Origin: an uncultured Eubacteriales bacterium
GTDB taxonomy: Bacteria > Bacillota > Clostridia > Oscillospirales > Oscillospiraceae
Assembly: GCA_900319695.1 (NCBI GenBank)
Contig: ONPN01000001.1
Location: 99,713-163,712, forward strand
Reading direction: 5' to 3'
DNA: 64,000 nt
Part shown: in pieces, positions 27,480 to 60,129 of the stretch
Layout: each line of letters starts with the position of its first letter
Position numbering within the stretch: the stretch's first letter is position 1
Made by a program: the position numbers and the translations under genes
The notes under the pieces: generated by a model
Database searches by the model: none
What the model saw: only the letters and a program-made list of their open reading frames with translations
What the model was told of the DNA's origin: nothing

Positions 27480-27494
27480 GTTTTCCTCATTTCC

Positions 27495-29874: not shown

Positions 29875-31052
29875 GCCTTTGCCCCCGTGATGAGCCAGAC
29901 CGGGTTCTGCGCCGTCATCAGGGTATGCGCCCCCGCCTTTCGGCTCCGGCTCACGGAGAGCTGGCACAGCTCGGGCGCGCGGCCCAGGGCCTTCATGGTT
30001 TCCACCGCCTCATGCAGGGTCTCGAGCGTGACGGCGGCCGCGCACAGCCGCGCCGCGGGGTTGGCCCCGGCGATCTCACGCAGAATATCGGGCAGGCTGC
30101 CGCCGCTGCCGCCGATGAAAACCGCGTCGGGCTTCGGCAGCACCCGCAGGGCCTCCGGGGCCTCGCCGCGCACAAGGCGCAGATTCCACGCCCCGAAGCG
30201 CCGTCGGTTTTTCTCCGCGAGGCAGAGCGCCTTTTCGTCCCGCTCCACGGAGAAGACGCGCCGCGTCCGCAGAGCGAGCTCCACCGCCACGCTGCCCGTC
30301 CCCGTGCCGACGTCCCAGCAGGTATCCTCCGGCCCGACGCCGAGCTTGGCGAGGATCACGGCGCGCACTTCCTGCTTGGTCATGGGCACGCCCTCCTCCC
30401 TGAGAAAGCTGTCGTCCGGAAAGCCGGGGCAGCGCTCCGCCGGGCGCGGCGCGGGGCGCGCCAGCAGGACGCTCAGGGGCGCGAAGTCCCGCCGCGCGAA
30501 GTCCTCCGCGCGGCCCAGCGTGATCCGCTCCTCCGCCGTGCCGAGCTTTTCCCCGACGGCGGTCTCGAGAAAGCCGAGCCCCGCCTCCGTAAGCTCCCGG
30601 CAGAGCGCCGCCGGGCCGCGCGCGCCGCCCGTGAGGAAGAAGACCGTCCTCCCGCCGCAGACCGCTTCGACCGCGTCGCAGTCGCGCCCGTGGGCCGAGC
30701 ACAGCCGCCAGTCCTGCCACGGCTCCTTCAGCCGCGCGGCGAGGACCTGCACGCTCGAAAGGCCGGGCAGCACCTTTATTTCCGCCCCCTCCGCTCTCTC
30801 CAAAACGCCCGCGGTCCCGGAGTAAAAGCCGCTGTCGCCGCTGAAAAGCAGCGCGGCGCTCTGTGCGTCCGACCGCCGCAGCGCGTCCTCGATCTCCCCG
30901 CCGCTGCGGGCCGCGATGCGCTGAGATGCGCCGGGAAACTGCTCCAAAAGCCGGGGCGAGCCGACCAGCAGCTCCGCCCCCTCTATGGCCTTTCGGGCCT
31001 CCGCGCTCAGGCTGTCAGGCCCGCAGCCGCAGCCGATCAGCGTCAGCTTCAT
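29871..31052 (-). CDS. cobL: Fused cobalt-precorrin-7 C5- and -6B C15-methyltransferase (CbiE-CbiT)
   Basis: 393 residues. The N-terminal ~200 are a tetrapyrrole methylase (LTLIGCGCGPDSLSAEA, LFSGDSGFYSG, LPGLSSVQVLAARL), the CbiE part. The C-terminal ~190 are a class I methyltransferase with decarboxylase activity (PMTKQEVRAVILAKLG, CWDVGTGTGSVAVELA, AVFIGGSGGSLPDIL), the CbiT part. The fusion order matches CobL of the aerobic route, although CbiD and CbiG mark this pathway as anaerobic. Confidence 0.94.
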   Translation of the reverse strand: MKLTLIGCGCGPDSLSAEARKAIEGAELLVGSPRLLEQFPGASQRIAARSGGEIEDALRRSDAQSAALLFSGDSGFYSGTAGVLERAEGAEIKVLPGLSSVQVLAARLKEPWQDWRLCSAHGRDCDAVEAVCGGRTVFFLTGGARGPAALCRELTEAGLGFLETAVGEKLGTAEERITLGRAEDFARRDFAPLSVLLARPAPRPAERCPGFPDDSFLREEGVPMTKQEVRAVILAKLGVGPEDTCWDVGTGTGSVAVELALRTRRVFSVERDEKALCLAEKNRRRFGAWNLRLVRGEAPEALRVLPKPDAVFIGGSGGSLPDILREIAGANPAARLCAAAVTLETLHEAVETMKALGRAPELCQLSVSRSRKAGAHTLMTAQNPVWLITGAKA

Positions 31053-31810
31053 CCCTGATCCTTCCTCTCCCGATATTCCGTGCCGAAGGCCGGATCATAG
31101 AGGCGGCTCCGCTCGGGGCCGCCCTCCAGAAAATCGCCGACCAGCACCAGCGCCGTCTTCTGTATCCCGTTCTCCTCCGCGCGCTGCGCCAAGGTCCCGA
31201 CCGTGCAGCGTATGCACTTCTCCTCCGGCCAGCTCGCCTTATACACCAGGGCGGCCGGGGTCTCGTCGCTGTACGCGCCCCGTATAAGCTCCGCGCGCAG
31301 CTTCTCCAGCATGCCCGCCGAGAGGAAGACCGCCATGGAGCTGCCGTGGGCCGCGAGGGCCGCGACGCTCTCCCGCTCCGGCACCGGCGTCCTGCCCGCC
31401 ATGCGCGTCAGGATCACGGTCTGACTTGCCCCCGGCACGGTGTATTCCGCGCGCAGGGCCGCCGCCGCGCCGCAGAAGCTCGACACGCCGGGCGTCACGT
31501 CGTAGGAGATGCCCAGGGCGTCCAGGCGCTCCGTCTGCTCGCGTATCGCCCCGTAGACGCTGGGGTCGCCGGTGTGTAGACGCACTGTCGTCTCTCCCCT
31601 CTCCTCCGCCTTCTGCATCGCCTCGACGATCTCCTCGAGGGTCATTTCGGCGCTGTTGAGGATGCGGCAGCTTTCCCGGCAGTAAGACAGCAGCGCGGGG
31701 CTTACAAGGCTGCCCGCGTAGATGACCAGATCGGCGTTTTCCAGCAGCCGCGCGCCCCGCAGCGTGATCAGATCCGGCGCGCCGGGCCCCGCCCCGACAA
31801 AATGAACCAT
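31049..31810 (-). CDS. cbiF: Cobalt-precorrin-4 C11-methyltransferase
   Basis: 253 residues, first gene of the operon. VHFVGAGPGAPDLITLRG, DLVIYAGSLVSPALL, RLHTGDPSVYGAIREQ, DVTPGVSSFCGAAAAL and LILTRMAGRTPVPE-like motifs are CobM/CbiF blocks. The ribosome site GGGAGGA lies just past the riboswitch terminator, so its translation and transcription are both exposed to the leader. Confidence 0.95.
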   Translation of the reverse strand: MVHFVGAGPGAPDLITLRGARLLENADLVIYAGSLVSPALLSYCRESCRILNSAEMTLEEIVEAMQKAEERGETTVRLHTGDPSVYGAIREQTERLDALGISYDVTPGVSSFCGAAAALRAEYTVPGASQTVILTRMAGRTPVPERESVAALAAHGSSMAVFLSAGMLEKLRAELIRGAYSDETPAALVYKASWPEEKCIRCTVGTLAQRAEENGIQKTALVLVGDFLEGGPERSRLYDPAFGTEYRERKDQG

Positions 31811-31821
31811 GTCTTCCTCCC

Positions 31822-31855
31822 AAACAAAAATGACGTACCCCGGAGCCGGGGTACG
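31822..31855 (-). terminator. Riboswitch expression-platform terminator
   Basis: A perfect 9-10 bp stem (CGTACCCCGG / CCGGGGTACG) followed on the minus strand by TCATTTTTGTTT, just before the cbiF ribosome site. Expected to form when corrinoid is bound. Confidence 0.8.
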
Positions 31856-32020
31856 CCAAGGGCAGACGCAGCCGCGCGTCTGTCAGCGCATGCCCCCGGT
31901 ACCGGCAGAAGCATCGCCTCTCTCCCGTGTATCTGACTTATCCTCATCAACGAGGCTTCACAGTGACCGACTCGCCGGGACTCTCACCCGATTCCACGTT
32001 CCGCCTGCGCGGAAGGAGAA
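31856..32020 (-). promoter_or_regulatory. Cobalamin riboswitch
   Basis: On the minus strand the leader contains GGGTGAGAGTCCCGG, then GTCACTGTGAAGCC and, about 30 nt later, AAGTCAGATACACGG (31925-31939), the B12-box landmarks in the right order. It precedes the 18.3-kb cob/cbi/btu run and its terminator, and should switch the whole operon off when cobalamin is plentiful. Confidence 0.93.
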
Positions 32021-32040
32021 GGCGTTATGTATTTTCATAT

Positions 32041-32069
32041 ACTATATCATACTGCCTCTTCTTTGTCAT
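32041..32069 (-). promoter_or_regulatory. Promoter of the cobalamin operon
   Basis: ATGACA (32064-32069), 17 bp, TATAGT (32041-32046) on the minus strand, about 20 bp before the riboswitch begins. It is divergent from the exporter promoter at 32118. Confidence 0.7.
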
Positions 32070-32117
32070 CCGTTTTTTCGCGCGCCCGCGCTGCCGCCGC
32101 ATCTTCGCGCGGTTTTG

Positions 32118-50047: not shown

Positions 50048-51412
50048 ATGAATCGAAACAGAAAAAAAGCACAGCTGATTTTTGTCGCCGTGCTTGTCGT
50101 GGCGATTCTGTTGTTTGCGGCAAGCATTATCAAGACAAATATATTTAACCAAAAGACGCACACGGTGTCCATCCCGGGCGCGGCTCTGTTTTCCGGGCAG
50201 CCCGCTCCGGATCAGGCGGTCTCCGTCCGGGCCGTCCCCAGGAGCAGCACCTGGACCAAGGTCTTCGACCCCGGAAACGAGGGCCTTACCGAGCCGAACA
50301 TTCAGGCGTACACCTATGACTTTACCGTCTCCAACAACACGGATGATGAGGTCGCGTCGTTTACCTTCAAACTGAACTTCGGTCAGGATACCTTCCTCGC
50401 CTCGGCCTGGAACGGCGCGCTGGAGCTCCATCAGTTCCGCGGCGGCGCGGAGCATACCGACACGATACCCGATCTGCGCGACTATAACCCCGACGATTAC
50501 GGCCTTGAGACCGTGGCGGTCGACGGCGAGCCGCTTGTGTCCATGCGCGCCGGGGATTATCTGCGCTACCTTCCCAGCGCCAGCATGAACGCCATGGAGA
50601 TACCGATCGAGCCCCGCGAGGGCACCACCCCTGGCTTCATCCTGTACGCGGCGATAGACGAGGGCATCGACAAGTCCAGCCTGGAGCTTGAGTACGTCTT
50701 TCACCGCCTGCTGACGAGCGAGCCGCTGTTCTGGCTCTCGCTGGCGGCCATGGCGATCTGGCTCATCGTGCTGGTCATCTTCGTCCTCACCTCCTTCCAG
50801 ATCCGCCGGTACAACGAGAGGCACAAGCGCGACAATGAGATCATCACGGAGTCGATCGAGACCTTTACCGGCTTCATCGACGCGAAGGACCCCTACACGA
50901 ACGGCCACTCCAAGCGCGTGGCCCGCTACACGCGGCAGCTTGCCGAGCAGATGGGATATGAGGGCGAGGAGCTCGACCGCATCTTCTACATCGCGCTGCT
51001 GCATGACTGCGGAAAGATCGGCGTACCGGACAGCATACTCGGCAAGCCGGGCAAGCTGACGCAGGAAGAGTTTGAGATCATCAAATCCCACACGCAGCGC
51101 GGCGCCGAGATTTTGAGCAGCTTTAAGAGTCTCGAGGACGCGGACGAGGGCGCGCACTACCACCATGAGCGCTACGACGGCAAGGGCTATCCGGAGGGAA
51201 AGGCGGGCGAGGATATCCCGCTGGTGGCCCGGATCATCTGCGTCGCGGATTCCTTTGACGCCATGAACTCGGACCGCGTGTACCGCAAGCGGCTCAAGAG
51301 GGATCGCATCATCAGCGAAATCGAAAAGAACAAGGGTCTCCAGTTCGACCCGCGCATTGCGGACATCATGCTCGATCTGATACGCAGCGGCCGCATCCCC
51401 ACGGAGGAGTAA
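50048..51412 (+). CDS. Membrane HD-GYP domain protein
   Basis: 454 residues from ATG 50048 (GGAG 10 nt upstream). TM1 (~8-28), an extracytoplasmic beta-rich domain (~35-220) containing FTVSNNTDDEVASFTFKLNF and SAWNGALEL, which resembles a CBM2-like fold, TM2 (~232-255), then HD-GYP (~270-450). H287 in NGHSKRV, H319-D320 in LHDCGKIGVPDSIL, HHERYDGKGYPEG with GYP at 380-382, and DSFDAMNSDR are all present. It is expected to hydrolyse c-di-GMP or a related dinucleotide, adding a third cyclic-di-GMP phosphodiesterase to the window. Confidence 0.92.
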   Translation: MNRNRKKAQLIFVAVLVVAILLFAASIIKTNIFNQKTHTVSIPGAALFSGQPAPDQAVSVRAVPRSSTWTKVFDPGNEGLTEPNIQAYTYDFTVSNNTDDEVASFTFKLNFGQDTFLASAWNGALELHQFRGGAEHTDTIPDLRDYNPDDYGLETVAVDGEPLVSMRAGDYLRYLPSASMNAMEIPIEPREGTTPGFILYAAIDEGIDKSSLELEYVFHRLLTSEPLFWLSLAAMAIWLIVLVIFVLTSFQIRRYNERHKRDNEIITESIETFTGFIDAKDPYTNGHSKRVARYTRQLAEQMGYEGEELDRIFYIALLHDCGKIGVPDSILGKPGKLTQEEFEIIKSHTQRGAEILSSFKSLEDADEGAHYHHERYDGKGYPEGKAGEDIPLVARIICVADSFDAMNSDRVYRKRLKRDRIISEIEKNKGLQFDPRIADIMLDLIRSGRIPTEE

Positions 51413-51418
51413 TACTGT

Positions 51419-51529
51419 TTTTCGTTAAAACAGCTCGTTTTAACGAAAAGGCATCGCGCAAAGCGCGCTGCCAGTTTTGTGCCCTTGGGCACAAAACACG
51501 TCTCATAGGTCTCCGACGCGCCTTTGGCG
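51419..51529. repeat. Interspersed hairpin repeat, copy 1
   Basis: It opens with a TTTTCGTTAAAAC / GTTTTAACGAAAA hairpin (51419-51449). A module GCAAAGCGCGCTGCCAGTTTTG...CACAAAAC.CGTCTCAT...CCGACGCGC follows. The same module recurs at 57353-57462 inside the leader of an array gene. Here it separates the HD-GYP gene from the first array gene and may terminate both. Confidence 0.7.
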
Positions 51530-51988
51530 CTATTCGCTGAGAGCTTTGATCGCGTCCGCCGTCCCGAGGACGGCGAGGTTCCGGCCGACGGTGGCGTACC
51601 ACTCATAGACGACCGTGCCGAAATACACAAACAGCTCCTCATGGCTGACGCGGTGGGGAAAGTCCTCGCGGTAGCGCTGCATCACATAGTCCGCGAGATT
51701 GTCTCTCTGCTCCTGTGTGAGCCCCGCGAAAAGCTCTCTCAGCGCGAGGGCGTCGGCCTCCCTGCCGTCCATGCTCTGCAGCGTGTTGGCGAGATAGCTG
51801 ACCACCGCCGGGAGAAACAGCTCCATCAGTTCCCTGCCCTTCTCCTCACAGTTCAGCCTATCGACGACGGCGGCACAGGGCGCGCAGGCGGCGGCGACGG
51901 CGTCCGGATCGATCTGCGCGGACGCGGAGACCGGGACGAGGCCCGCGAGCAGGAGCGCGCACAGCGACAGCGCAAGCAGTCTTTTCAT
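51530..51988 (-). CDS. Secreted protein 1 of the array (most divergent)
   Basis: 152 residues from ATG 51988 behind GGAGGAATG. Signal peptide (LLALSLCALLLAGLVPVSASA) then a helical acidic protein. CAPCAAVVDRLNC contributes three cysteines, which no other array member has. The LYP.V.QANH.YG core of the other members is absent; size, signal sequence start (MKRLLALSLC), orientation and solo promoter (TTGACA, 18 bp, TATAAT at 52025-52054) link it to them. Function unknown. Confidence 0.75.
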   Translation of the reverse strand: MKRLLALSLCALLLAGLVPVSASAQIDPDAVAAACAPCAAVVDRLNCEEKGRELMELFLPAVVSYLANTLQSMDGREADALALRELFAGLTQEQRDNLADYVMQRYREDFPHRVSHEELFVYFGTVVYEWYATVGRNLAVLGTADAIKALSE

Positions 51989-52024
51989 CCGCTCATTCCT
52001 CCTCTGTTGACTTATGATGGTTCT

Positions 52025-52054
52025 ATTATAGTCCCATGAGCCCTTATCTGTCAA
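52025..52054 (-). promoter_or_regulatory. Promoter of array gene 1
   Basis: TTGACA (52049-52054), 18 bp, TATAAT (52025-52030). Confidence 0.7.
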
Positions 52055-52068
52055 ATAAGCGCAGATAC

Positions 52069-52108
52069 GCAAAATCGCGCGCCGATCACGGCGCGCGGTT
52101 TTGTCGTT
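52069..52108 (-). terminator. Terminator of array gene 2
   Basis: CGCGCGCC-GTGATC-GGCGCGCG followed by ATTTTGCG on the minus strand. Confidence 0.7.
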
Positions 52109-52110
52109 TT

Positions 52111-52539
52111 TCAGGGGAACACCGGCAGACTTGCCATCATGCCCGCGACCATGTTGTTGGCCGCTGTGACCATGTTGTTTGCAATCTCCGTGCAGACACG
52201 GTTATACTCCGCGGTGGCGTTGTTGATCACGTTCTGGGCCGCCACGTTGTAGCACTCGGCCATCTGATAGCCGACCCTCTCATACAATCCCTCATAGCTG
52301 AAGGGCGCGTCGCTGACGAAGCTGTCGTAGTGAAGATACTGGCCCGGGTTCTGCACGCCGAGATCCTGGAAGCCCGTATAGCTGTTCACGAACATGGTCG
52401 CACCGGCAAACCTGCCGTAAGCGGCGTAAAGGCTGTTCATCTGCTGTACGACAGGATACAGGTCGACGTCCGCGTGCGCGGAGGGCATCATGGCGGCCAG
52501 CAGCATGACGCACAGCATCAGCGCAAGCATTCTTTTCAT
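52111..52539 (-). CDS. Secreted protein 2 of the array
   Basis: 142 residues, ATG behind GGAGAAGG. Signal peptide (MLALMLCVMLLAAMMPSAHA), then VDLYPVVQQMNSLYAAYGRF, the family's N-terminal core. A variable middle and a helical C-terminus (IANNMVTAANNMVAGMMASL) follow. No cysteine except one near the end. Solo transcription unit: promoter TTGACA, 17 bp, TATACT at 52589-52617 and terminator directly after the stop. Function unknown. Confidence 0.8.
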   Translation of the reverse strand: MKRMLALMLCVMLLAAMMPSAHADVDLYPVVQQMNSLYAAYGRFAGATMFVNSYTGFQDLGVQNPGQYLHYDSFVSDAPFSYEGLYERVGYQMAECYNVAAQNVINNATAEYNRVCTEIANNMVTAANNMVAGMMASLPVFP

Positions 52540-52588
52540 TTACCTTCTCCTTCCCAAAAAATCAAGCCGTTGCCGTACTTGTGCTTTT

Positions 52589-52617
52589 AGTATAGCTTTT
52601 TTGAAATCTCTTGTCAA
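52589..52617 (-). promoter_or_regulatory. Promoter of array gene 2
   Basis: TTGACA (52612-52617), 17 bp, TATACT (52589-52594). Confidence 0.75.
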
Positions 52618-52670
52618 TATATTGTTTTTATTTTGTAATCTTTTAACAACTTTCGCCTCACTCTCGCGCA

Positions 52671-52703
52671 GCAAAAAACCACACGCCGAAAGCGTGTGGC
52701 TTT
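52671..52703. terminator. Terminator of array gene 3
   Basis: CCACACGCCGAAAGCGTGTGG with TTTTTT on both sides; works for either strand. Confidence 0.8.
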
Positions 52704-52723
52704 TTTGTTTATTATGAAAGCGA

Positions 52724-53182
52724 TCAGGCGAAGGGATTGCCGAGGTTTTCAATCGCGGTTTCGACGCCGGCCTCCATGGTCTCGATCACGGCGACCAGAT
52801 CTTCACCCACGTCTTCGGTAGCCTCGGAAAGGTGGTACATCAGCTGCGGGAACAGCAGCATGTACAGTCCCTCATAGCTCATGCCGGTTTTCAGGCTTTT
52901 TACATGATCGAGAATGAGCTGGTAGTCATTGCCCATCTTCTCCGCCTCTTCTACGGCTTCCGCGCTGGCGTTCGGCCCGAGGATCTTGCTCATCTCCATG
53001 AACCCGTTATAGGCGTTGACCAAAATATTCGCCGTGGCAAAGCGGGCGTAGGCGTTATCCAGGCTCTGCATCTGCTGAACGGCGGGGTAAAGGTCGATGG
53101 TTTCATTCGCGGCGAAGGCGGATGCGGGGACGACGCTGACGAACAGCATCACGCAGAGAACCAGTGCAAGCAGTTTTTTCAT
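52724..53182 (-). CDS. Secreted protein 3 of the array
   Basis: 152 residues, ATG behind GGGAGGAT. Signal peptide (LLALVLCVMLFVSVVPASAFA), nearly identical to those of proteins 4 and 5. IDLYPAVQQMQSLDNAYARF is the core motif, then a variable acidic helical region and YEGLYMLLFPQL, which matches YEGLYERVGYQM in protein 2. The mature protein has no cysteine. Solo promoter at 53238-53266. Confidence 0.8.
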   Translation of the reverse strand: MKKLLALVLCVMLFVSVVPASAFAANETIDLYPAVQQMQSLDNAYARFATANILVNAYNGFMEMSKILGPNASAEAVEEAEKMGNDYQLILDHVKSLKTGMSYEGLYMLLFPQLMYHLSEATEDVGEDLVAVIETMEAGVETAIENLGNPFA

Positions 53183-53237
53183 TTTGTATATCCTCCCTGT
53201 AATTTGATTGTATATGCGGTGTCCTTTTACATAATTT

Positions 53238-53266
53238 ATTATACATAATTCTGTTCTTTATGTCAA
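53238..53266 (-). promoter_or_regulatory. Promoter of array gene 3
   Basis: TTGACA (53261-53266), 17 bp, TATAAT (53238-53243). Confidence 0.75.
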
Positions 53267-53473
53267 CAGAAATTTTTGTTTTTTTCAAGTTTTTCTTCAC
53301 TTTAAGCGAAGCTGAAATTTTTTATTTTTGTTTATCCGACTTTTCAACAACTTTTTGTGCTTTTCTCATTGTTGAAAACCGGCCGTCATTTGTCCATTTT
53401 TATTTACATAATGTTGTTTACATATTACTTTTCAACAATCCATTTCTATTCATTTTTTCTCCCCTTTCAAGCG

Positions 53474-53531
53474 CAAAAAAAATCACGCCCCTTTCGGGAC
53501 GTGATCTCTATATCGATTGTCAGGATCGATA
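53474..53531 (-). terminator. Conserved two-hairpin 3' UTR of array gene 4
   Basis: Going downstream from the gene: ATATCGAT-CCTGACA-ATCGATAT (first hairpin), then ATCACGTCCCGAAAGGGGCGTGAT with TTTTTTTT. The pair of hairpins recurs after array genes 5 to 10. Confidence 0.85.
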
Positions 53532-53566
53532 TGTTTGTTGGTTCTTTGCGCCTCAGCCAATACCGC

Positions 53567-54082
53567 CTACGGCACGGCAGGCATCTGCGCAAGGGTGCTG
53601 GCCACTACGGCGGCGACGCTCGCATCGAGCTTCGCGATTTCGGCGTCGATGTTCTCATCGATCTTGTCGCACTGCTCAATGTACTTGTTGATGGTGTCCG
53701 TTCTGGCGGCGGAGACTACATTATTGTACATTTTGGTAATATTTTTCCCCCACGCATTGAACAGGCCCTCGGCGCTGAAACGATAGTCATAGCTGTGCAT
53801 CTTTTTCCATGCAGTTTTAAATAATTTGTTGCTAGATGCTTCCAATGCTGCTGTACGGGCATTGGAGTCTTTGGCAAACTGATCGCCCATACTCTTGAAC
53901 ATGTCAGAGATGGTGACGAGAGCAGTCTTGCCGAAGTAATCGCCGTACGCGGCGTACAGGTGATTCATCTGATCAACAGCGGGCTTGAGGTCAATTTTCT
54001 CGGGTAAGTCTGCGAATGCGAAAGTAGGTATGACGCTGACGAACAGCATCACGCAAAGAACCAGTGCAAGCAGTTTCTTCAT
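53567..54082 (-). CDS. Secreted protein 4 of the array
   Basis: 171 residues, ATG behind AAGGAGGA. Signal peptide (LVLCVMLFVSVIPTFAFA), then LPEKIDLKPAVDQMNHLYAAYG, shared almost exactly with protein 5. The middle is basic and variable (NKLFKTAWKKMHSYD). FSAEGLFNAWGKNIT matches the YEGLY block of proteins 2 and 3. The C-terminus is a helix ending STLAQMPAVP. Promoter TTGACT, 17 bp, TATATT at 54135-54163, with a TGAAATAAACTC box just upstream of -35. Confidence 0.82.
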   Translation of the reverse strand: MKKLLALVLCVMLFVSVIPTFAFADLPEKIDLKPAVDQMNHLYAAYGDYFGKTALVTISDMFKSMGDQFAKDSNARTAALEASSNKLFKTAWKKMHSYDYRFSAEGLFNAWGKNITKMYNNVVSAARTDTINKYIEQCDKIDENIDAEIAKLDASVAAVVASTLAQMPAVP

Positions 54083-54134
54083 AGGCTATTTCCTCCTTGA
54101 AAGTTTTAGGCAGAATACCTGCCTACACAGTGCT

Positions 54135-54163
54135 AATATACCCTAATATATACTGAAAGTCAA
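54135..54163 (-). promoter_or_regulatory. Promoter of array gene 4
   Basis: TTGACT (54158-54163), 17 bp, TATATT (54135-54140). Upstream of -35 lies AACAATTATGAAATAAACTC, the shared AT-rich box. Confidence 0.75.
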
Positions 54164-54181
54164 GAGTTTATTTCATAATTG

Positions 54182-54829
54182 TTAAGTAACCGCCGTAAAA
54201 AAATCACGCCCCTTTCGGGACGTGATCTCTATATCGATTGTCAGGATCGATATGTTTGTTGGTTCTTTGCGCCTCAGCCAATACCGCCTACGGCACACTA
54301 CGGCGGCCATGCTCGCCTCGAGCTTCGCGCTCTCGGCGGCGATGTTCTCATTGATCTTGGCTTCAGTCTCTACGTACTTGGCAATCGTGTCTTCTTTAAC
54401 ACCGGCGCGAACATGGTCGTACCAAACAGTAATGGGAATACCAATCAGCTTGAAGATGCCTTCGGGGCTGTATCCAACGCCGTTGGCAACAGTGACCAAA
54501 CCGTTGTCAAATAAAACATTGGGAACCCTGTTCCAGATGCCTTTAAAAGTGTCGTCCACGCCTGTGGCTCCCTCCGCTTTGGGCGCCTTCATGGCATTCG
54601 CGCGGGCCTTGGAGTCCTTGGGGAACAGCTCAGCCAGACTTTGGAAGCCTTTATAGGTGTTGGCGATGTCGGATTTGACAGCGAACGCACCATAGGCGTG
54701 GTACAGGTGATTCATCTGATCAACAGCGTTCTTGAGGTCAATTTTCTCGGGTAAGTCTGCGAATGCGGAAGTAGGTATGACGCTGACGAACAGCATCACG
54801 CAAAGAACCAGTGCAAGCAGTTTCTTCAT
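54182..54829 (-). CDS. Secreted protein 5 of the array, C-terminus frameshifted by a 28-nt deletion
   Basis: 215 residues. Signal peptide and LPEKIDLKNAVDQMNHLYHAYG as in protein 4, then its own middle and YSPEGIFKLIGIPIT. The DNA near the 3' end (54290-54310) matches gene 4 except that 28 nt are missing after GTAGTG on the minus strand. The normal end (ASTLAQMPAVP in gene 4) is lost. The frame instead reads through the 3' UTR hairpins, adding about 37 unrelated basic residues (CRRRYWLRRKEPTNIS...) until a stop past the terminator. The protein may be degraded or non-functional. Confidence 0.8.
   Translation of the reverse strand: MKKLLALVLCVMLFVSVIPTSAFADLPEKIDLKNAVDQMNHLYHAYGAFAVKSDIANTYKGFQSLAELFPKDSKARANAMKAPKAEGATGVDDTFKGIWNRVPNVLFDNGLVTVANGVGYSPEGIFKLIGIPITVWYDHVRAGVKEDTIAKYVETEAKINENIAAESAKLEASMAAVVCRRRYWLRRKEPTNISILTIDIEITSRKGRDFFTAVT
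54197..54252 (-). terminator. Two-hairpin 3' UTR of array gene 5
   Basis: Same as that of gene 4 (nearly identical sequence), but here lying inside the extended reading frame because of the frameshift. Confidence 0.8.
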
Positions 54830-54880
54830 AGGCTATATCCTCCTTGTAATTTTAGACGGAATAACCGTCTATACAATGGT

Positions 54881-54909
54881 AATATACCCCTATTTACGTT
54901 GAATGTCAA
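54881..54909 (-). promoter_or_regulatory. Promoter of array gene 5
   Basis: TTGACA (54904-54909), 17 bp, TATATT (54881-54886), with AACAATTATGAAACAAAGCC upstream. Confidence 0.75.
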
Positions 54910-54977
54910 GGCTTTGTTTCATAATTGTTAAGTAACTTGTTGCCCTATATGCCTTCCCCTCGAGGGGAAGGCAGGGC

Positions 54978-55036
54978 AAAAAAACAACACACTCCCCCTT
55001 CGGGGAGTGTGCGGCTTTATCGATTGTCAGGATCGA
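54978..55036 (-). terminator. Two-hairpin 3' UTR of array gene 6
   Basis: TCGATCCTGACAATCGA hairpin, then CACACTCCCCGAAGGGGGAGTG-type terminator stem with TTGTTTTTTTG. Confidence 0.8.
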
Positions 55037-55058
55037 CAGGGTTTAAGTTCTTTGCAGA

Positions 55059-55604
55059 TCAGTTCCAGCCAGCGGGAGCGGTGACGGTGGGGATGTTGTT
55101 CTCCGCATTCGCGATCGCGCCGGTGATGGTGCCGTTGTTCACGTTGCCGAGATTGCCCTTATACTGGCCGACGTAGGCTTTGCCGAAATAATTCCAAAAT
55201 TCGGTAGCCAGCGCAACGAGAGTACTGTCATTGAGCACCATCTTTTGTTTTCCATTTATTGTCATAATACTCTTTTTGGCCGGAATGAGCTTGCCTGTCT
55301 CATCAAACTTGGCTTTTTGGTACCCCTCATAAAGCTGCTTGAACGCCAACGGCAGCGCAACATAAAGGACCATATTATTCTCAATCAGTTCGGGGAATGC
55401 TTCGGTGAAGCCGTTGTAGAGGCCGACAACCTTTCTCATCCCATCATACTTCTGGATGGCGCCGTAGTAGTGGTTAGCCTGCTTAACAATGGGGTACAGG
55501 TCGATCCTGGCGGCGGTTTCAGCTTCGGGAAGCTGAGCAAACGCGGTGACGGAAATGCCGCAAATCATCACAAGGCAAAGAACCAGTGCAAGCAGTTTCT
55601 TCAT
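55059..55604 (-). CDS. Secreted protein 6 of the array
   Basis: 181 residues, ATG behind AGGAGGAT. Signal peptide (LVLCLVMICGISVTAFA), then RIDLYPIVKQANHYYGAI, a variable centre with VVGLYNGFTEAFPELIE, LATEFWNYFGKAYVGQY and the C-terminal block TITGAIANAENNIPTVTAPAGWN. Blocks are shared with protein 7 (ends) but the centre differs widely. Promoter at 55663-55691. Function unknown; cell-exterior location expected. Confidence 0.82.
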   Translation of the reverse strand: MKKLLALVLCLVMICGISVTAFAQLPEAETAARIDLYPIVKQANHYYGAIQKYDGMRKVVGLYNGFTEAFPELIENNMVLYVALPLAFKQLYEGYQKAKFDETGKLIPAKKSIMTINGKQKMVLNDSTLVALATEFWNYFGKAYVGQYKGNLGNVNNGTITGAIANAENNIPTVTAPAGWN

Positions 55605-55662
55605 TTTATATATCCTCCTAAAAATTCATGTGAGGAGTTTCAGCTTCTCTTCATGTAAGTTT

Positions 55663-55691
55663 AATATACTTTATTTTTTCGGCTTTGTCAA
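55663..55691 (-). promoter_or_regulatory. Promoter of array gene 6
   Basis: TTGACA (55686-55691), 17 bp, TATATT (55663-55668). The box upstream contains the perfect palindrome AGAAATAATTTCT in the form GAAATAATTTC. Confidence 0.75.
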
Positions 55692-55725
55692 GAAATTATT
55701 TCAAAATGATTAAATCGCGGCGACG

Positions 55726-55796
55726 GCGACACCTCATCCGTCACGGCGCTCGCGGGGGATCGCGCCGCGACACCTTCCCCTCCAGGGGAAGGCAGA
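55726..55796. repeat. Fragment of the palindrome-ended interspersed repeat
   Basis: Contains GTCACGGCGCTCGCG...CGCGCCGCGACA and CTTCCCCTCCAGGGGAAG, matching one end of the element at 1870-2016. Confidence 0.55.
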
Positions 55797-55797
55797 G

Positions 55798-55855
55798 AAA
55801 AAGAACACACTCCCCTTTCGGGGAGTGTGCGGATTGATCGATTGTCAGGATCGAG
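55798..55855 (-). terminator. Two-hairpin 3' UTR of array gene 7
   Basis: CTCGATCCTGACAATCGAT hairpin, then CACACTCCCCGAAAGGGGAGTGTG with TTCTTTTTC. Confidence 0.8.
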
Positions 55856-55876
55856 CGTATTCAGCTTCTCTGCAAA

Positions 55877-56491
55877 TCAGCCCGGCACAGGTCCCCAGCC
55901 CGCGGGAGCGGTGACGGTGGGCATGTTGTTCTCCGCATTCGCGATCGCGCCGGTGATGGTGCCGCTGTTCGCGTTGCCGAGATTGCCGTCAAACTCGCCG
56001 GCGTAAGCGTTGGCGAATCTGTCCCAAATCACGGAAACGAGCATGTTGATCGTGTTGCTGTCGCTCACGATTTTCTCGTGGGTTTCCTCATTTTCTACGG
56101 TAGGCAGAATCAGCTCGCCTGTATTCGGATCGAACCCAGCTTCCTTGAACACTAAAAACATTCCTTCAAGCGCATACATGGCGCCGTGAAGCGACTTGTT
56201 ATTTTGAAGCAGCTCGTGGAAAGCCTCGGCAAAGCCGTTGTAGAGGTTGACAGTCTTCCTCATGACGTCGTTCACGCGGAGAGCGCCGTAGTAGTGGTTG
56301 GCCTGCTTAACAATGGGGTACAGGTCGATCCTGGCGGCGGTGTTGGAGCCGCCGGGGCTGCCGAGGCTGCCGGGGTCCCTGACAGTGTTGTTGTTGATGA
56401 AGCTGGGGTCGTTGGTGCTTTTAGCGAAAGCGGCGACGGAGATGCTGCCGATCATGGCGAGGCAGAGAAGCAGCGCAAGCAGTTTCTTCAT
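55877..56491 (-). CDS. Secreted protein 7 of the array
   Basis: 204 residues, longest intact member. Signal peptide (LLLCLAMIGSISVAAFA), then an extra Gly/Asn/Pro-rich linker (residues ~24-52, with DPGSLGSPGGSN) before RIDLYPIVKQANHYYGAL. NLYNGFAEAFHELLQ, IWDRFANAYAGEF and TITGAIANAENNMPTVTAPAGW follow the family pattern. It is closest to protein 6. Promoter at 56539-56567. Confidence 0.82.
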   Translation of the reverse strand: MKKLLALLLCLAMIGSISVAAFAKSTNDPSFINNNTVRDPGSLGSPGGSNTAARIDLYPIVKQANHYYGALRVNDVMRKTVNLYNGFAEAFHELLQNNKSLHGAMYALEGMFLVFKEAGFDPNTGELILPTVENEETHEKIVSDSNTINMLVSVIWDRFANAYAGEFDGNLGNANSGTITGAIANAENNMPTVTAPAGWGPVPG

Positions 56492-56538
56492 TTACCTATC
56501 CTCCTTCAAAGCTATGAGCTTGCATACCCTATATGGAT

Positions 56539-56567
56539 AATATATCCTTTTCATCCCGCTTTGTCAA
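56539..56567 (-). promoter_or_regulatory. Promoter of array gene 7
   Basis: TTGACA (56562-56567), 17 bp, TATATT (56539-56544). The shared upstream box is weak here. Confidence 0.7.
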
Positions 56568-56679
56568 GAATGAGTTACGAATTTATTACATATACGTTAC
56601 AGCAAAGCCTTCCCCTCAAGGGGAAGGCTTTTGCGCCGGTCTATATGGCTTTCTCTAAAAAAAGGGGGGAAGGCATGGC

Positions 56680-56742
56680 AAAAAAGAACACACTCCCCTT
56701 TCGGGGAGTGTGCGGCTTTATCGATTGTCAGGATCGATATTA
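56680..56742 (-). terminator. Two-hairpin 3' UTR of array gene 8
   Basis: TATCGATCCTGACAATCGATA hairpin followed by CACACTCCCCGAAAGGGGAGTGTG and TTCTTTTTTG. Confidence 0.8.
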
Positions 56743-56759
56743 CTCAGGTTCTTTGCTGA

Positions 56760-57263
56760 TCACTCACGCTGATTGTCGAACGCAGCGGGAGCGGTGACAG
56801 TGGGGATAGACAGCTCAGCACCTGCGATCGCAGCGGTGACCGAGCCGTCATAATAAGAGACTTGGAACGGAGCCGGATACATGTACACGCCGACGAATTC
56901 GTTGCCGAGAGTCCACCAGATCCGGGCGAGGGCGTAGTCGAGATCCATATTTTCCGGGATAAGGAGGCCGCCGGTCTCTACGTCAACAGGAACCTGTTTG
57001 TACATATAGTAGAACGACATAAGCCGATTAGTAGCGCCGGTTCTCTCAATCAGCTTGGGAAAAGCCGCTCCAAAGCCGTTGCAGAGATCAACCGTCAGCT
57101 TGGTGAATCCATACGACTGGAGCTTGCCGTATAAGTGATTGGCCTGCTGAACGATGGGATGCAGATCGATGCCGGAATCGGAACCGCCACCCCTGGCAAA
57201 CGCGGTGACGGACATGCTGCAGAGCATGGCGACGCAGAGAAGCAGCGCAAGCAGTTTTTTCAT
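56760..57263 (-). CDS. Secreted protein 8 of the array
   Basis: 167 residues from ATG 57263 behind AAGGAGGAT; the open frame starts upstream but the MKKLLALLLC start is family-typical. Signal peptide, then SGIDLHPIVQQANHLYGKL, LCNGFGAAFPKLIE, LARIWWTLGNEFVGVY and ELSIPTVTAPAAF. The centre (NRLMSFYYMYKQVPVD) is unlike its neighbours. One cysteine in the mature part. Its promoter is far upstream (57482-57510), leaving a ~210-nt leader that contains the interspersed repeat at 57353-57462. Confidence 0.82.
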   Translation of the reverse strand: MKKLLALLLCVAMLCSMSVTAFARGGGSDSGIDLHPIVQQANHLYGKLQSYGFTKLTVDLCNGFGAAFPKLIERTGATNRLMSFYYMYKQVPVDVETGGLLIPENMDLDYALARIWWTLGNEFVGVYMYPAPFQVSYYDGSVTAAIAGAELSIPTVTAPAAFDNQRE

Positions 57264-57352
57264 TTGAAGTATCCTCCTTAAATCTTCACGCAAATGTCGC
57301 ATCTGTTTTGTGTGTAATACTGTTCACTGATTAAATGCTTCATTTTATCGGT

Positions 57353-57462
57353 GAGGCACCGCGCAAATGCGCGTTGCCAGTTTTGCGCCATGTTGCGCAA
57401 AACTCGTCTCATGCAAGACACCGACGCGCTGCGCGCTATAAAACGCTTTTCAAGCGTTTTAA
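57353..57462. repeat. Interspersed hairpin repeat, copy 2, within a 5' UTR
   Basis: Homologous to 51419-51529: CGCGCAAATGCGCG hairpin, TTGCCAGTTTTGCGCCATGTTGCGCAAAAC in two halves, CGTCTCAT, CCGACGCGC, and an AAAACGCTTTTCAAGCGTTTT hairpin at the outer end. It lies between promoter and start codon of array gene 8. Confidence 0.75.
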
Positions 57463-57481
57463 CGGTGTCTGGTATAAGATT

Positions 57482-57510
57482 ACTATATTGCATCTTTTCC
57501 GCTATGTCAA
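57482..57510 (-). promoter_or_regulatory. Promoter of array gene 8
   Basis: TTGACA (57505-57510), 17 bp, TATAGT (57482-57487), with AATAATTTTGAAACAAATTC upstream. Confidence 0.75.
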
Positions 57511-57602
57511 GAATTTGTTTCAAAATTATTAAATTGCAAAAGATCCGCGTCCTGCCGCCGCGCGGCCGCGAGGGTCGCCCCTGCGGTGATGACGAGCGCG
57601 CG

Positions 57603-57662
57603 CAAAAAAACACACTCCCCTTTCGGGGAGTGTGCAGCTTTATCGATTGTCAGGATCGATAT
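57603..57662 (-). terminator. Two-hairpin 3' UTR of array gene 9
   Basis: TATCGATCCTGACAATCGATA hairpin, then CACACTCCCCGAAAGGGGAGTGTG and TTTTTTTG. Confidence 0.85.
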
Positions 57663-57681
57663 TACTCAGGTTCTTTGCAGA

Positions 57682-58221
57682 TCAGTTGTCAACCGGGAAC
57701 GCAGTGGGAGCGGTGACCGTGGGGATCTTCTGCTCCTGAGCGGCGATCGCGCCGGTGATGGTGCCGGCAGCGGCAGCGACAGCGTCCTTGTCGCTAACAT
57801 CGGAAATGTAGCTGCCAACGAAAGCGTTACCGAGACCCCACCAAACCTGGGCGAGAGCGTAGCCGAGGGAAGCGCCATCGGGATACTTGATCTCCTTGAG
57901 CTTGCCGGTATCTTCGTCGTCAAACCCAGTCGCCTTAACAGTGTTGAAGATGGTGACGAGCTTATTCAGAGCAGTCTGAGCATCCGTGCTGTTCTTGACC
58001 AGGGTGGGGTAAGCAGTGCTGAAGCCTTTGAACAGGCCGGCGACCGTGTTCATGATGTCATACTTCATGAGAGAGCCGTAGAAGTGGTTGGCCTGCTTCA
58101 CGGCGGGATACAGGCTGACGCCGGAAGCGGTGGAAGCGGTGCCGGCATCACCGGCGAACGCGGTGGCGGACAGGCTGAGAACCATGACGATGCAAAGAAC
58201 CAGTGCAAGCAGTTTCTTCAT
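57682..58221 (-). CDS. Secreted protein 9 of the array
   Basis: 179 residues from ATG 58221 behind AAGGAGGAT. Signal peptide (LVLCIVMVLSLSATAFA), then VSLYPAVKQANHFYGSLMKY, LFKGFSTAYPTLVKNS, VWWGLGNAFVGSYISDVSDK and TITGAIAAQEQKIPTVTAP. Very close to protein 10 over its whole length, so the two come from a recent duplication. The transcript leader has a CACGAAGGG / CCCTTACGTG hairpin shared with gene 10. Confidence 0.83.
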   Translation of the reverse strand: MKKLLALVLCIVMVLSLSATAFAGDAGTASTASGVSLYPAVKQANHFYGSLMKYDIMNTVAGLFKGFSTAYPTLVKNSTDAQTALNKLVTIFNTVKATGFDDEDTGKLKEIKYPDGASLGYALAQVWWGLGNAFVGSYISDVSDKDAVAAAAGTITGAIAAQEQKIPTVTAPTAFPVDN

Positions 58222-58279
58222 TGGATATATCCTCCTTAAAAATCTCACGTAAGGGGTTCAGGTCCCTTCGTGTGGGTTT

Positions 58280-58308
58280 ACTATACAATATCTTATATTC
58301 TTTGTCAA
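58280..58308 (-). promoter_or_regulatory. Promoter of array gene 9
   Basis: TTGACA (58303-58308), 17 bp, TATAGT (58280-58285). GAAATAATTTC palindrome directly upstream of -35. Confidence 0.78.
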
Positions 58309-58369
58309 GAAATTATTTCTAAATAATTAAATATGTGTATCGGGTTTAATCAGCTAACCCGACGTAAGC

Positions 58370-58533
58370 ACTTGCCTCCCCCAGCCGCGAAGCGGCGTCT
58401 CGGGGGGGGGGAGGTGCCCCGAAGGGGCGGAGAGGGGGACGTCTTGCAACCAGCTTGGGTGCAATCGTCGCCCCTCTCAGTCACCAGTGTGCGCACTGGT
58501 GACAGCTCCCCCCGGCGGGGGGAGCCAAGGCCC
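58370..58533. repeat. Palindrome-ended interspersed repeat, copy 3
   Basis: GCCTCCCCC...GGGGGGGAGGTGC at one end and CAGCTCCCCCCGGCGGGGGGAGCC in two parts at the other; interior CCCCTCTCAGTCACCAGTG as in copies 1 and 2. A run of ten G at ~58401-58410 may be slippage-prone. Confidence 0.75.
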
Positions 58534-58804
58534 CTTGTTTGCACATTTGCCGAGCTAAGCCGATACGCATATAATTATTTATTCGGCAATTAAATAACCG
58601 CAAATCCCTTGCAGAAACGTAAGAAATTGCCGAATTAATAATTGCCATATTTTTCGGTTGCCCCGCCAGGGGCGAGAAAAATGGCATTTAAAATCTTATT
58701 ACTCCGGCTGTACAACCCTATAGCATGGGGATATTTCATTGCCGGAGTAATAAATCGAAACGGAGCCGCGCCCTATATGCCCTCCCCTCGAGGGAAAGGC
58801 ATGG
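58534..58804. other. Hairpin-rich non-coding segment
   Basis: No credible gene. It holds a TTATTACTCCGGC inverted repeat (58696-58708 and 58741-58753, 32-nt loop), a hairpin around GTTGCCCCGCCAGGGGCGA (58657-58676) flanked by complementary TTTTTC/GAAAAA, and TTCGGCAATT / AATTGCCGAA pairs. It looks like decayed small palindromic elements. Confidence 0.6.
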
Positions 58805-58867
58805 CAAAAAAAGAACACACTCCCCTTTCGGGGAGTGTGCAGCTTTATCGATTGTCAGGATCGATAT
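58805..58867 (-). terminator. Two-hairpin 3' UTR of array gene 10
   Basis: TATCGATCCTGACAATCGATA hairpin, then CACACTCCCCGAAAGGGGAGTGTG and TTCTTTTTTTG. Confidence 0.85.
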
Positions 58868-58886
58868 TACTCAGGTTCTTTGCTGA

Positions 58887-59417
58887 TCAGCTGAGTTCGA
58901 ACGCAGTGGGAGCGGTGACCGCGGGGATCTTCTGCTCCTGAGCGGCGATCGCGCCGGTCACAGTGCCAGCAGCGGCAGCGACAGCGTCCTTGTCGCTAAC
59001 ATCGGAAATGTAGCTGCCAACGAAAGCGTTGCCGAGACCCCACCAAACCTGGGCGAGAGCGTAGCCGAGGGAACCGCCTTCCGAATACACGATCTCCTTG
59101 AGCTTGCCGGTTTCGTCGTCAAACTGAGTGCCTTTAACATCGTTGAAGATGGTGACGAGCTTATTCAGAGCAGCCTGAGCATCCTTGCTGTTCTTGACCA
59201 GGGTGGAGTAAGAAGTGCTGAAGCCTTTGAACAGGCCGGCGACCGTGTTCATGATGTCATACTTCATGAGAGAGCCGTAGAAGTGGTTGGCCTGCTTCAC
59301 GACGGGATACAGGCTGACGCCGGAAGCGGTGGAAGCGGCGGTGTTATCGGCGAACGCGGTGACGGAGAGGCTGGCGATCATGGCGATGCAAAGAACGATT
59401 GCAAGCAGTTTCTTCAT
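58887..59417 (-). CDS. Secreted protein 10 of the array
   Basis: 176 residues, ATG behind AAGGAGGAT. Signal peptide (IVLCIAMIASLSVTAFA), then VSLYPVVKQANHFYGSLMKY and the same blocks as protein 9; differences cluster at SKDAQAALN, VKGTQFDDETG and the last residues. No cysteine in the mature part. First of the array in transcription order, but every member has its own promoter and terminator, so there is no operon. Confidence 0.83.
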   Translation of the reverse strand: MKKLLAIVLCIAMIASLSVTAFADNTAASTASGVSLYPVVKQANHFYGSLMKYDIMNTVAGLFKGFSTSYSTLVKNSKDAQAALNKLVTIFNDVKGTQFDDETGKLKEIVYSEGGSLGYALAQVWWGLGNAFVGSYISDVSDKDAVAAAAGTVTGAIAAQEQKIPAVTAPTAFELS

Positions 59418-59476
59418 TTGGAATATCCTCCTTAAAAATTCTCACGTAAGGGTTTCAGGTCCCTTCGTGTGGCCAC

Positions 59477-59505
59477 AGTATACAGCGTCTTTTCCCCTTT
59501 GTCAA
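59477..59505 (-). promoter_or_regulatory. Promoter of array gene 10
   Basis: TTGACA (59500-59505), 17 bp, TATACT (59477-59482), with AATAATTTTGAAATAAACTC upstream. Confidence 0.78.
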
Positions 59506-59541
59506 GAGTTTATTTCAAAATTATTAAATCGAATTTTAAAG

Positions 59542-59574
59542 ATTTTACAAACACGGCGGGCCGGGGACGGCCCG
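59542..59574 (+). repeat. 33-bp direct repeat, left copy, flanking the RelBE module
   Basis: ATTTTACAAACACGGC then GGGCCGGGGACGGCCCG. The second half is a hairpin. A perfect copy in the same orientation is at 60131-60163. Confidence 0.9.
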
Positions 59575-59591
59575 GTTTACGGATTCCGCCA

Positions 59592-59620
59592 TTGACAGCG
59601 CCGCTTTCTTGTAGTACAAT
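59592..59620 (+). promoter_or_regulatory. Promoter of the RelBE module
   Basis: TTGACA (59592-59597), 17 bp, TACAAT (59615-59620). TGTAGT occurs twice around the -10 and may be the autorepressor site. Confidence 0.7.
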
Positions 59621-59642
59621 GTAGTCCAAGGAGGCGATTACG

Positions 59643-59870
59643 ATGTCATTTTCTATCAGATTGACGGAGGATGAACGCATGCTCGCTGAGAGCTACGCTA
59701 AAATTCACTCTTATTCCGTGTCGGAAGCCTTTAAGAGAGCCTTGTTTGAGAAGATTGAGGACGAGTACGATCTCGCGGTCGCGGAATCCGCTCACAGAGA
59801 GTATGTGGACAGCGGACGCAAGTCCACGCCTGTGCGGGATTTCTGGAGAGAGTTGGATGAAGAGGGATAA
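59643..59870 (+). CDS. RelB-type antitoxin
   Basis: 75 residues, ATG behind AAGGAGG. The N-terminus (FSIRLTEDERMLAESYAKIHSYSVSEAFKRAL in parts) is a ribbon-helix-helix DNA-binding domain. The acidic C-terminal tail (VRDFWRELDEEG) would wrap the toxin. It precedes and overlaps the toxin gene by 14 bp, the standard order for autoregulated type II modules. Confidence 0.88.
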   Translation: MSFSIRLTEDERMLAESYAKIHSYSVSEAFKRALFEKIEDEYDLAVAESAHREYVDSGRKSTPVRDFWRELDEEG

Positions 59871-60129
59871 AGTTGAAGTCTCTGAGCGCTTTAAGAGAGA
59901 GTTTCGCAAGTTGGACAGGTACACGCAGAAAATTCTCCGGGCCTGGATCGATAAAAACCTTGTTGACTGTGAAAATCCCGGAGCTTTTGGAAAAGGACTG
60001 ACCGCCAATCGCAGCGGCCAATGGCGATACCGTATAGGGGATTACCGCCTGATCTGTTCACTGGAGGACGACAAACTGGTCATTCTCGCTCTGTCTGTCG
60101 GGCACAGAAGCGAAATCTACAGGCAGTAG
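59857..60129 (+). CDS. RelE/ParE-family toxin
   Basis: 90 residues from ATG 59857. KVEVSERFKREFRKLDRYTQKIL, WIDKNLVD, GKGLTANRSGQWRYRIGDYRLIC in parts, and LVILALSVGHRSEIYR follow the RelE fold: R in WRYRIGDYR and the terminal GHR.EIY are the usual mRNA-cleavage positions. It likely cleaves ribosome-bound mRNA when free of the antitoxin. Confidence 0.9.
   Translation: MKRDKVEVSERFKREFRKLDRYTQKILRAWIDKNLVDCENPGAFGKGLTANRSGQWRYRIGDYRLICSLEDDKLVILALSVGHRSEIYRQ

Follow-up and report, generated by a model that had tools for sequence, protein, structure and literature searches.

Most known cases of exported proteins being shuffled between gene cassettes come from pathogens that evade immunity. In the Vpma array of Mycoplasma agalactiae, paralogous exported proteins share conserved signal peptides and conserved non-coding segments; these proteins are lipoproteins, switched by a dedicated recombinase that acts at sites upstream of the genes. 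The staphylococcal superantigen-like (ssl) array is a tandem row of small paralogues that are freely secreted and have a variable body (an oligonucleotide/oligosaccharide-binding, or OB, fold plus a beta-grasp), and integron cassette arrays carry one gene and one palindromic element per unit in a single orientation, the units being mostly promoterless and recombining at these sites. Here, we describe an array of ten small genes (m1-m10, numbered left to right) on the minus strand of a 64-kb window, i.e., the whole stretch of DNA analysed (63% GC; G000 contig C48:99713-163712), in which such shuffling appears in a gut-type lineage and in an undescribed family of apparently free secreted proteins, with a promoter-like site on every copy. 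The explanation that we favor, and consider reasonably probable, is that the genes form a multigene family specific to this lineage, whose small and probably helical products are freely secreted, with every gene in an expression cassette of its own, and that recombination has reshuffled these cassettes.

The vls (Borrelia) and msp2/p44 (Anaplasma) systems likewise combine repeated or tandem paralogues, conserved ends, variable centres and segmental exchange. The array shares the segmental exchange between paralogues; however, whereas in vls and msp2 silent copies supply a single expression site, all ten array genes have a promoter-like site and a start codon, and whereas vls and msp2 encode surface proteins, the array proteins are apparently free. 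The Vpma array is another of the closest known systems (PMC2268961), from which the present array differs in having no visible lipobox, an invariant element downstream, all genes in the same direction and a promoter-like site for each gene. Unlike the ssl proteins, those of the array are predicted to be helical rather than OB-fold/beta-grasp and have no matching Pfam family, and unlike polymorphic toxin loci, with their constant N-terminus and variable C-terminal domain, the array varies centrally, with conserved C-termini in m6-m10.

The ten genes are consecutive open reading frames (ORFs) at 51530-59417, all open and in the place where an earlier note on this DNA had put them, and each has a Shine-Dalgarno sequence and, by eye, a signal peptide; further frames of 60 amino acids (aa) or more lie around the genes (open frames only). 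The mature proteins, taken as what remains after removal of the first 24 codons, have 118-191 aa, an isoelectric point below 6 in eight of ten cases (m5 and m6 are basic) and 0-3 cysteines. Profile comparison places nine genes, m2-m10, in one family, with window subfamilies A (m6-m10, carrying the C-terminal block TGAIA..E..IPTVTAP) and B (m2-m5). Between disjoint groups, and over 39-107 columns, subfamily A is linked to m4/m5/x11 with 95% probability, to m2/g4 with 96% and to g1/g2 with 96%, and the B groups to one another with 97-99%, x11 being an eleventh member beyond the window that the earlier note had missed (an ORF of 314 aa, C48:80093-80554) and g1-g5 the members and orthologues in a second genome, G266, described below. 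Weaker links join A to m3/g3 (74%) and m4/m5/x11 to g1/g2 (81%), and those of g1/g2 to m2/g4 (2%) and m3/g3 (18%) are not significant. The sequence blocks named in the earlier note were largely recovered: the signal peptides are of the MK(K/R)(L/M)LA type in 10/10 genes and the C-terminal block occurs in 5/5 of m6-m10, with variants such as TAAIAGAE in m8, whereas the core LYP.V.QANH.YG is exact only in m6, m7, m9 and m10, with LHPIVQQANHLYG in m8 and a looser form in m2-m5. The array-type signal peptide also matches the starts of many larger ORFs in this and other genomes of its taxonomic family, and is therefore no marker of family membership. That m1 is a diverged relative, as had been suggested, is unproven, since profile comparison linked m1 and its orthologue g5 to no family group (best probability 9.8%). 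Similarly, m9 and m10 are indeed the closest pair, but "near-identical" overstates an 87% identity of the mature proteins, and the case for ongoing duplication is weak because even this pair differs at 13% of mature residues.

The evidence for recombination comes from synonymous sites, which differ sharply along single genes. Between m4 and m5, codons 1-45 give synonymous differences of 0, 0 and 0.11, rising to 0.52-0.83 in codons 46-135 and then falling to 0.22-0.25 in codons 136-165, and about 80 aligned bases downstream show zero differences; between m6 and m7, the values are 0.45-0.53 in codons 1-30, 0.10 in codons 31-45, 0.51-0.88 in codons 46-139 and 0-0.11 in codons 140-181. Such changes along one gene are not easily made by point mutation under protein selection. 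A permutation test of the longest runs of identical synonymous codons (45 pairs, corrected threshold about 0.0011) was significant for m4/m5 (codons 2-43, p 0.0004), m6/m7 (codons 144-177, p 0.0006), m4/m10 (codons 2-16, p 0.0006) and m5/x11 (codons 62-79, p 0.0010). It did not reach the threshold for m4/m9 (0.0012), m4/g2 (0.0016), m4/m6 (0.022), m5/m6 (0.038), m5/m9 (0.038) and m5/g1 (0.053), nor for the orthologue controls m1/g5, m2/g4 and m3/g3 (p 0.13-0.32).

Comparison between species points the same way. G266, which we take to be a rumen metagenome-assembled genome (Ruminococcaceae bacterium RUG13116, with RUG read in that sense), carries g1, g2 and g3 in tandem (L072 1356-1778, 2299-2772 and 3321-3785), adjoining lipoprotein-like and oxidoreductase genes whose counterparts lie after m10 in the window, while g4 and g5, orthologues of m2 and m1, lie on a separate contig (L073 7226-7669 and 8089-8607). 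Copy number and centres therefore vary between relatives, as anticipated (ten plus x11 here vs. three plus two in G266, counting the m1 orthologue), and, because the G266 members sit on two contigs, so does position, although the incompleteness of both assemblies calls for caution here. For m10 and g1, identity is 88% over the upstream 100 bases, 81% for the signal peptide and 97% over the first 75 bases past the stop codon, vs. 30% for the aligned mature protein. The m2/g4 pair shows the reverse pattern (77% upstream, 72% signal peptide, 86% mature, 69% 3'), and m3/g3 has 82%, 94%, 62% and 56%, respectively; shuffled flanks average 58-59% identity. In trees of eight units, the flanks place g1 in the A type (support 100/100), and a (g1,g2) grouping is rejected (p 9e-6 in the approximately unbiased, or AU, test), whereas the proteins join g1 and g2 (98/96) and reject placing g1 within the A clade (p-AU 0.0105) or with m9 and m10 (2.5e-6). 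This conflict means that the g1 coding sequence and its flanks have different histories.

Breakpoints fall near codons 45 and 140 and near the start and stop codons, positions for which ordinary homologous recombination between cassette ends suffices. As read from these sequence comparisons, the cassettes are mosaic and recombination is the cause of their conserved ends and variable centres. A cassette would comprise promoter, 5' untranslated region (UTR), signal peptide, gene, 3'UTR and terminator, and its homologous ends offer a natural substrate for unequal crossing-over and gene conversion, by which the middles can be duplicated, deleted and reshuffled. The array divides into a slow set, m1-m3, whose members have orthologues, and a fast set, m4-m10, whose members carry a 3' hairpin and for which no orthologue was found.

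The ratio of nonsynonymous to synonymous change (dN/dS) was below 1 in all 14 pairs computed (range 0.18-0.98): m2/g4 0.18, m5/g2 0.24, m3/g3 0.25, m5/x11 0.33, g1/g2 0.42, m8/m6 0.48, m4/m5 0.50, m4/g2 0.50, m6/m7 0.53, m1/g5 0.61, m6/m10 0.67, m8/m9 0.69, m10/g1 0.69 and m9/m10 0.98. Of the earlier proposal that conserved ends and variable centres reflect diversification, the pattern stands, with recombination as its source; selection for partner, ligand or self/non-self choice finds no support in these values. The variable centres might contact a varying extracellular partner (a competitor, phage, protist, host or polymer), a step that we put forward tentatively, as the least certain of the model. 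If the centres do bind variable partners, the array would serve a rumen or gut bacterium as a natural generator of diversity.

The signal peptides of m2-m10 end in A-F-A (A-H-A in m2). No lipobox or LPXTG motif was seen by eye, and no anchor family lay above cut-off in Pfam or NCBIfam; the placement at the cell surface that had been suggested thus finds no recognised anchor in its favor, and the proteins look freely secreted. AlphaFold2 gave a helical model of mature m10 (14 sequences; mean pLDDT, the predicted local distance difference test score, 75; predicted template modelling score, pTM, 0.64), from which the family proteins are probably helical.

Sigma-70-type promoter-like sites, TTGAC(A/T)-17/18-TATA(A/C/G/T)T, precede all ten genes and match 10-12 of the 12 bases of TTGACA/TATAAT; in a scan of both strands of 51400-59700, 18 sites reached at least 9/12, compared with a shuffle mean of 7.6. 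Terminators were found by scan behind seven genes (m2, m3 and m6-m10), a terminator-like stem lies downstream of m4 and m5 in the consensus fold, and the 3' side of m1 runs into a dispersed repeat. The claim that each gene is a transcription unit of its own is thus borne out at the level of promoter prediction. Hairpins are present in the 5'UTRs, and since they fold modestly better than shuffles (z 0.0 to -3.3 for the seven folded), we make no claim on them. As a yardstick of expression, we used a per-codon log-likelihood trained on GroEL (541 codons) and an EF-Tu fragment (81 codons), with the array excluded, because ribosomal protein L2 is absent from the incomplete genome (2.8 Mb, 96 contigs, completeness 79%). 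Scores were 0.205 for m10, 0.193 for m9, 0.154 for g1, 0.122 for g2 and 0.102 for m8, against a background of -0.40 to 0.03 (at most 0.033) for 23 window ORFs, with m1 (-0.197), m2 (-0.152), m3 (-0.048) and x11 (-0.074) inside the background range. From this codon usage, we infer that m8-m10 are highly expressed.

The invariant downstream element, TCGATCCTGACAATCGAT, is identical in 9/9 units of two species (m4-m10, g1 and g2), while the surrounding sequence differs between A and B types. With one mismatch allowed, its 17-base core occurs seven times in its own genome, twice in G266 and in none of the other 100 genomes of the genus; with three mismatches, the 19-base form is expected 0.01 times by chance in the window and found seven times. 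The element folds as a hairpin immediately before the terminator (consensus fold; z -6.4 for the 81-nt 3' end of m10, terminator included), and Rfam gave no match at E <= 1 over 51300-59700. The nine units that carry it all lack an identified orthologue in the other species, whereas the six units that have one (m1-m3 and g3-g5) are all without the element; these counts share ancestry and hence are not independent, and x11 has neither hairpin nor orthologue. Compared with m4, m5 has a short deletion near its 3' end, and the resulting frameshift carries the last ~40 codons through the gene's own hairpin and terminator-like stem. The hairpin may be a common post-transcriptional control element of the fast set, acting on mRNA stability or through a trans-acting partner. 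That it marks a dedicated system (a trans-acting RNA or protein regulator, or a recombination factor) acting only on the fast-changing members is a doubtful proposition in our estimate; if true, such a system would couple the expression, or exchange, of the whole secreted-variant repertoire, with the slow members outside, and the family-specific hairpin would be a handle for finding its controlling factor. Separately, in m9, m10 and, with one base changed, g1, the loops of the 5'UTR and 3' hairpins both contain CCTGA, which also occurs upstream of the latter hairpin (58808-59480), possibly as a shared binding motif and possibly by chance, and one core with two mismatches lies away from the array in G266 (C4:5036-5052, L077).

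Database searches gave no identity for these proteins. None of the ten scored above cut-off in Pfam or NCBIfam, the best NCBIfam match (E 5e-4, 20.7 of 50 bits) being restricted to the signal-peptide region of m9, and with the mature members (14 sequences in set A3, without m1 and g5) the best matches, each to a single member and none convincing, had E 0.0097 in PHROGs, 0.012 in PADLOC and 0.013 in Pfam. A PDB sequence profile search returned seven sequences at E <= 1, with only Syn-F4-Link (1.1e-5) under 0.001; we rejected it as a relative and read it as a designed protein, since its relative Syn-F4 is named de novo. Foldseek with the mature m10 model found no PDB match at E <= 0.001 (best E 2.0; best in BFVD 0.87), and searches of open-access literature yielded no description of this family. 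The earlier impression that no described family matches is therefore upheld across Pfam, NCBIfam, PHROGs, PADLOC and PDB.

Profiles of the mature proteins (E 0.01) detected the family in 2/102 genomes of the genus, i.e., its own and G266. A family-level search of 400 genomes returned its own genome and G110 (E 5e-4, within an 1829-aa frame), and an order-level search of 394 genomes its own genome and two further matches (E 0.003 and 0.005); we rejected these three as members because they are marginal. Scans of genome contigs gave no distant relatives with m10 and, with the m2/g4 alignment, one locus, CADAAM010000081.1, which is G266 itself; viral contigs gave no match to sets A6 or A5 of the family or to the 18-nt 3' element. 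Full-length proteins had matched in 73/200 genomes; these matches disappear with mature proteins and are therefore read as signal-peptide matches only. Among those listed, most start at residue 1-4 and end before 60, and a few reach 92-133, mostly in far larger ORFs. Two secreted proteins of G174 (C26, L048 4556-5401 and 15298-16443; 52% identical) have an array-like signal peptide and no Pfam match, and were likewise rejected as relatives (profile probability 0.2%).

It is important to note that several observations weigh against the favored explanation. The diverged centres align poorly, so that synonymous estimates there are rough, and the clades given to the AU test were chosen after the regional identities had shown the pattern, i.e., these p values are not blind. 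Run tests were not significant for m10/g1 (0.20), m9/g1 (0.15) and g1/g2 (0.27); because of the first and last of these, the between-species case rests on the tree conflict and the regional identities. No dN/dS exceeded 1, leaving adaptive diversification unsupported, and a second structural model, of g4, was poor (pLDDT 59, pTM 0.38). The frameshifted tail of m5 and the insertion behind the m8 promoter fit relaxed constraint and temper the claim that every copy matters. Codon adaptation does not extend to the whole of the fast set (m4 0.042, m5 0.010, m6 0.005, m7 0.001), its background was chosen by a rule on third-position GC content (GC3) rather than from curated gene calls, and GCT makes up 43/96 alanine codons in m6-m10 vs. 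6/71 in GroEL; GCT richness is thus not a GroEL trait, and part of the codon signal may reflect origin rather than expression. Finally, the assemblies of both the window's genome and G266 are incomplete (79% and 84%, respectively).

Some of these points would fit ordinary birth-and-death paralogues, in which duplicates drift with little function, gene conversion and purifying selection hold the ends, and nothing adaptive is varied. This account, which we regard as possible although rather unlikely, accommodates dN/dS values of 0.24-0.69 among diverged fast-set pairs and 0.98 for m9/m10, the m5 tail, the repeat behind the m8 promoter and the presence of the family in so few genomes of the genus, but it sits less easily with promoter-like sites on every gene, ten open frames, the codon adaptation of m8-m10, the clear purifying selection on m2 (dN/dS 0.18) and the 18-nt hairpin core that is invariant in 9/9 units. 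Alternatively, there may have been no exchange at all, with selection on expression signals conserving the flanks while coding sequences evolve fast by point mutation. The conserved flanks are indeed transcription signals, from upstream of the -35 box to the terminator, and the m10/g1 and g1/g2 run tests were not significant; however, the contrast in synonymous sites between gene ends, where the difference approaches zero, and strongly diverged centres (m4/m5, m6/m7), together with the conflict between flank and protein trees, makes this very improbable. Similarly improbable, in our judgment, is a site-specific cassette system in which a recombinase would use the 3' hairpin as its site to move units in and out of the array, as in integrons or Vpma arrays. 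The palindromic arms around a 7-bp asymmetric centre, present once per unit and in one orientation, and the 18-nt core that is invariant across two species and confined to units without orthologues, would suit such a system. Yet, in contrast to integron cassettes, each unit carries a promoter-like site, and the sequences to the left and right of the hairpin are of the same type as each other within 9/9 units and match the unit's own upstream type, not that of the next unit, in the 7/9 that can be typed (m4, m5, m6, m9, m10, g1 and g2; m7 is too diverged upstream, and m8 is split by the repeat), with no crossover at the hairpin among the units compared. Further, the detected breakpoints lie inside genes or near start and stop codons, and a scan of 16 gene products of the window, including six from genes that flank the array, found no recombinase. 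Recombination between cassette ends thus remains the explanation that we favor; the coordinates of the features on which it draws are given in Table 1.

Table 1. Genes and associated sequence features of the array (window coordinates).
Feature	Position	Strand	Remarks
m1	51530..51988	-	secreted protein, 152 aa; family membership unproven; orthologue g5 in G266 (L073 8089-8607)
m2	52111..52539	-	142 aa, slow member; orthologue g4 in G266, 86% mature identity, dN/dS 0.18; without 3' hairpin
m3	52724..53182	-	152 aa; orthologue g3 in G266, 62% mature identity, dN/dS 0.25; without 3' hairpin
m4	53567..54082	-	171 aa, subfamily B; first 43 codons almost equal to m5, centre replaced
m5	54182..54829	-	215 aa; frameshifted tail
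m6	55059..55604	-	181 aa, subfamily A; C-terminal codons almost equal to m7
m7	55877..56491	-	204 aa, subfamily A
m8	56760..57263	-	167 aa, subfamily A
m9	57682..58221	-	179 aa, subfamily A; mature protein 87% identical to m10
m10	58887..59417	-	176 aa, subfamily A; at locus corresponding to g1 of G266
3'UTR hairpin of m4	53512..53530	-	ATCGAT-CCTGACA-ATCGAT
Hairpin of m5	54233..54251	-	now within the frameshifted m5 ORF
3'UTR hairpin of m6	55019..55037	-	
3'UTR hairpin of m7	55837..55855	-	
3'UTR hairpin of m8	56720..56738	-	
3'UTR hairpin of m9	57642..57660	-	
3'UTR hairpin of m10	58847..58865	-	
Promoter-like site of m10	59477..59505	-	TTGACA-17-TATACT
Promoter-like sites, other nine genes	52025-52054, 52589-52617, 53238-53266, 54135-54163, 54881-54909	-	scan
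Promoter-like sites, other nine genes (rest)	55663-55691, 56539-56567, 57482-57510, 58280-58308	-	scan
Intrinsic terminator-like stem of m10	58815..58840	-	same stem after m9, m8 and m7; one-base variant after m6
Dispersed repeat, MITE-like (miniature inverted-repeat transposable element)	57312..57481		between promoter-like site and remaining 5'UTR of m8

The dispersed repeat is about 150 bp long, has the ends TAATACTG...CAGTATAA and contains several hairpins within it; seven copies were aligned. Besides the copy behind the m8 promoter, which, like the 3' hairpin and the frameshifted tail of m5, the earlier note had not mentioned, one lies at ~51409-51533 of the window, and others on G000 contigs C27, C59, C71, C82, C83 and elsewhere; 28 of the 49 genome matches listed land on this repeat. 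A possibly related repeat is found in G266, between g1 and g2 and also after g3.

Regarding the surroundings of the array, a DUF6290/ParE-type toxin-antitoxin pair (59643-60129) lies between m10 and the lipoprotein-like gene; the corresponding site in G266 lacks it. The two genomes also share a 5.4-kb stretch at 97.4% identity (window 26713-32112 vs. L088 10267-15666), which in G266 is ~2 kb from the m2/m1 orthologues; other shared DNA shows ~75-83% identity over long stretches, and the difference suggests that the 5.4-kb stretch was recently transferred. Elsewhere in G000 (C83, L093 1350-17826), a second row comprises at least five larger signal-peptide proteins (569-708 aa), three of which share a C-terminal YDRAALTD block.

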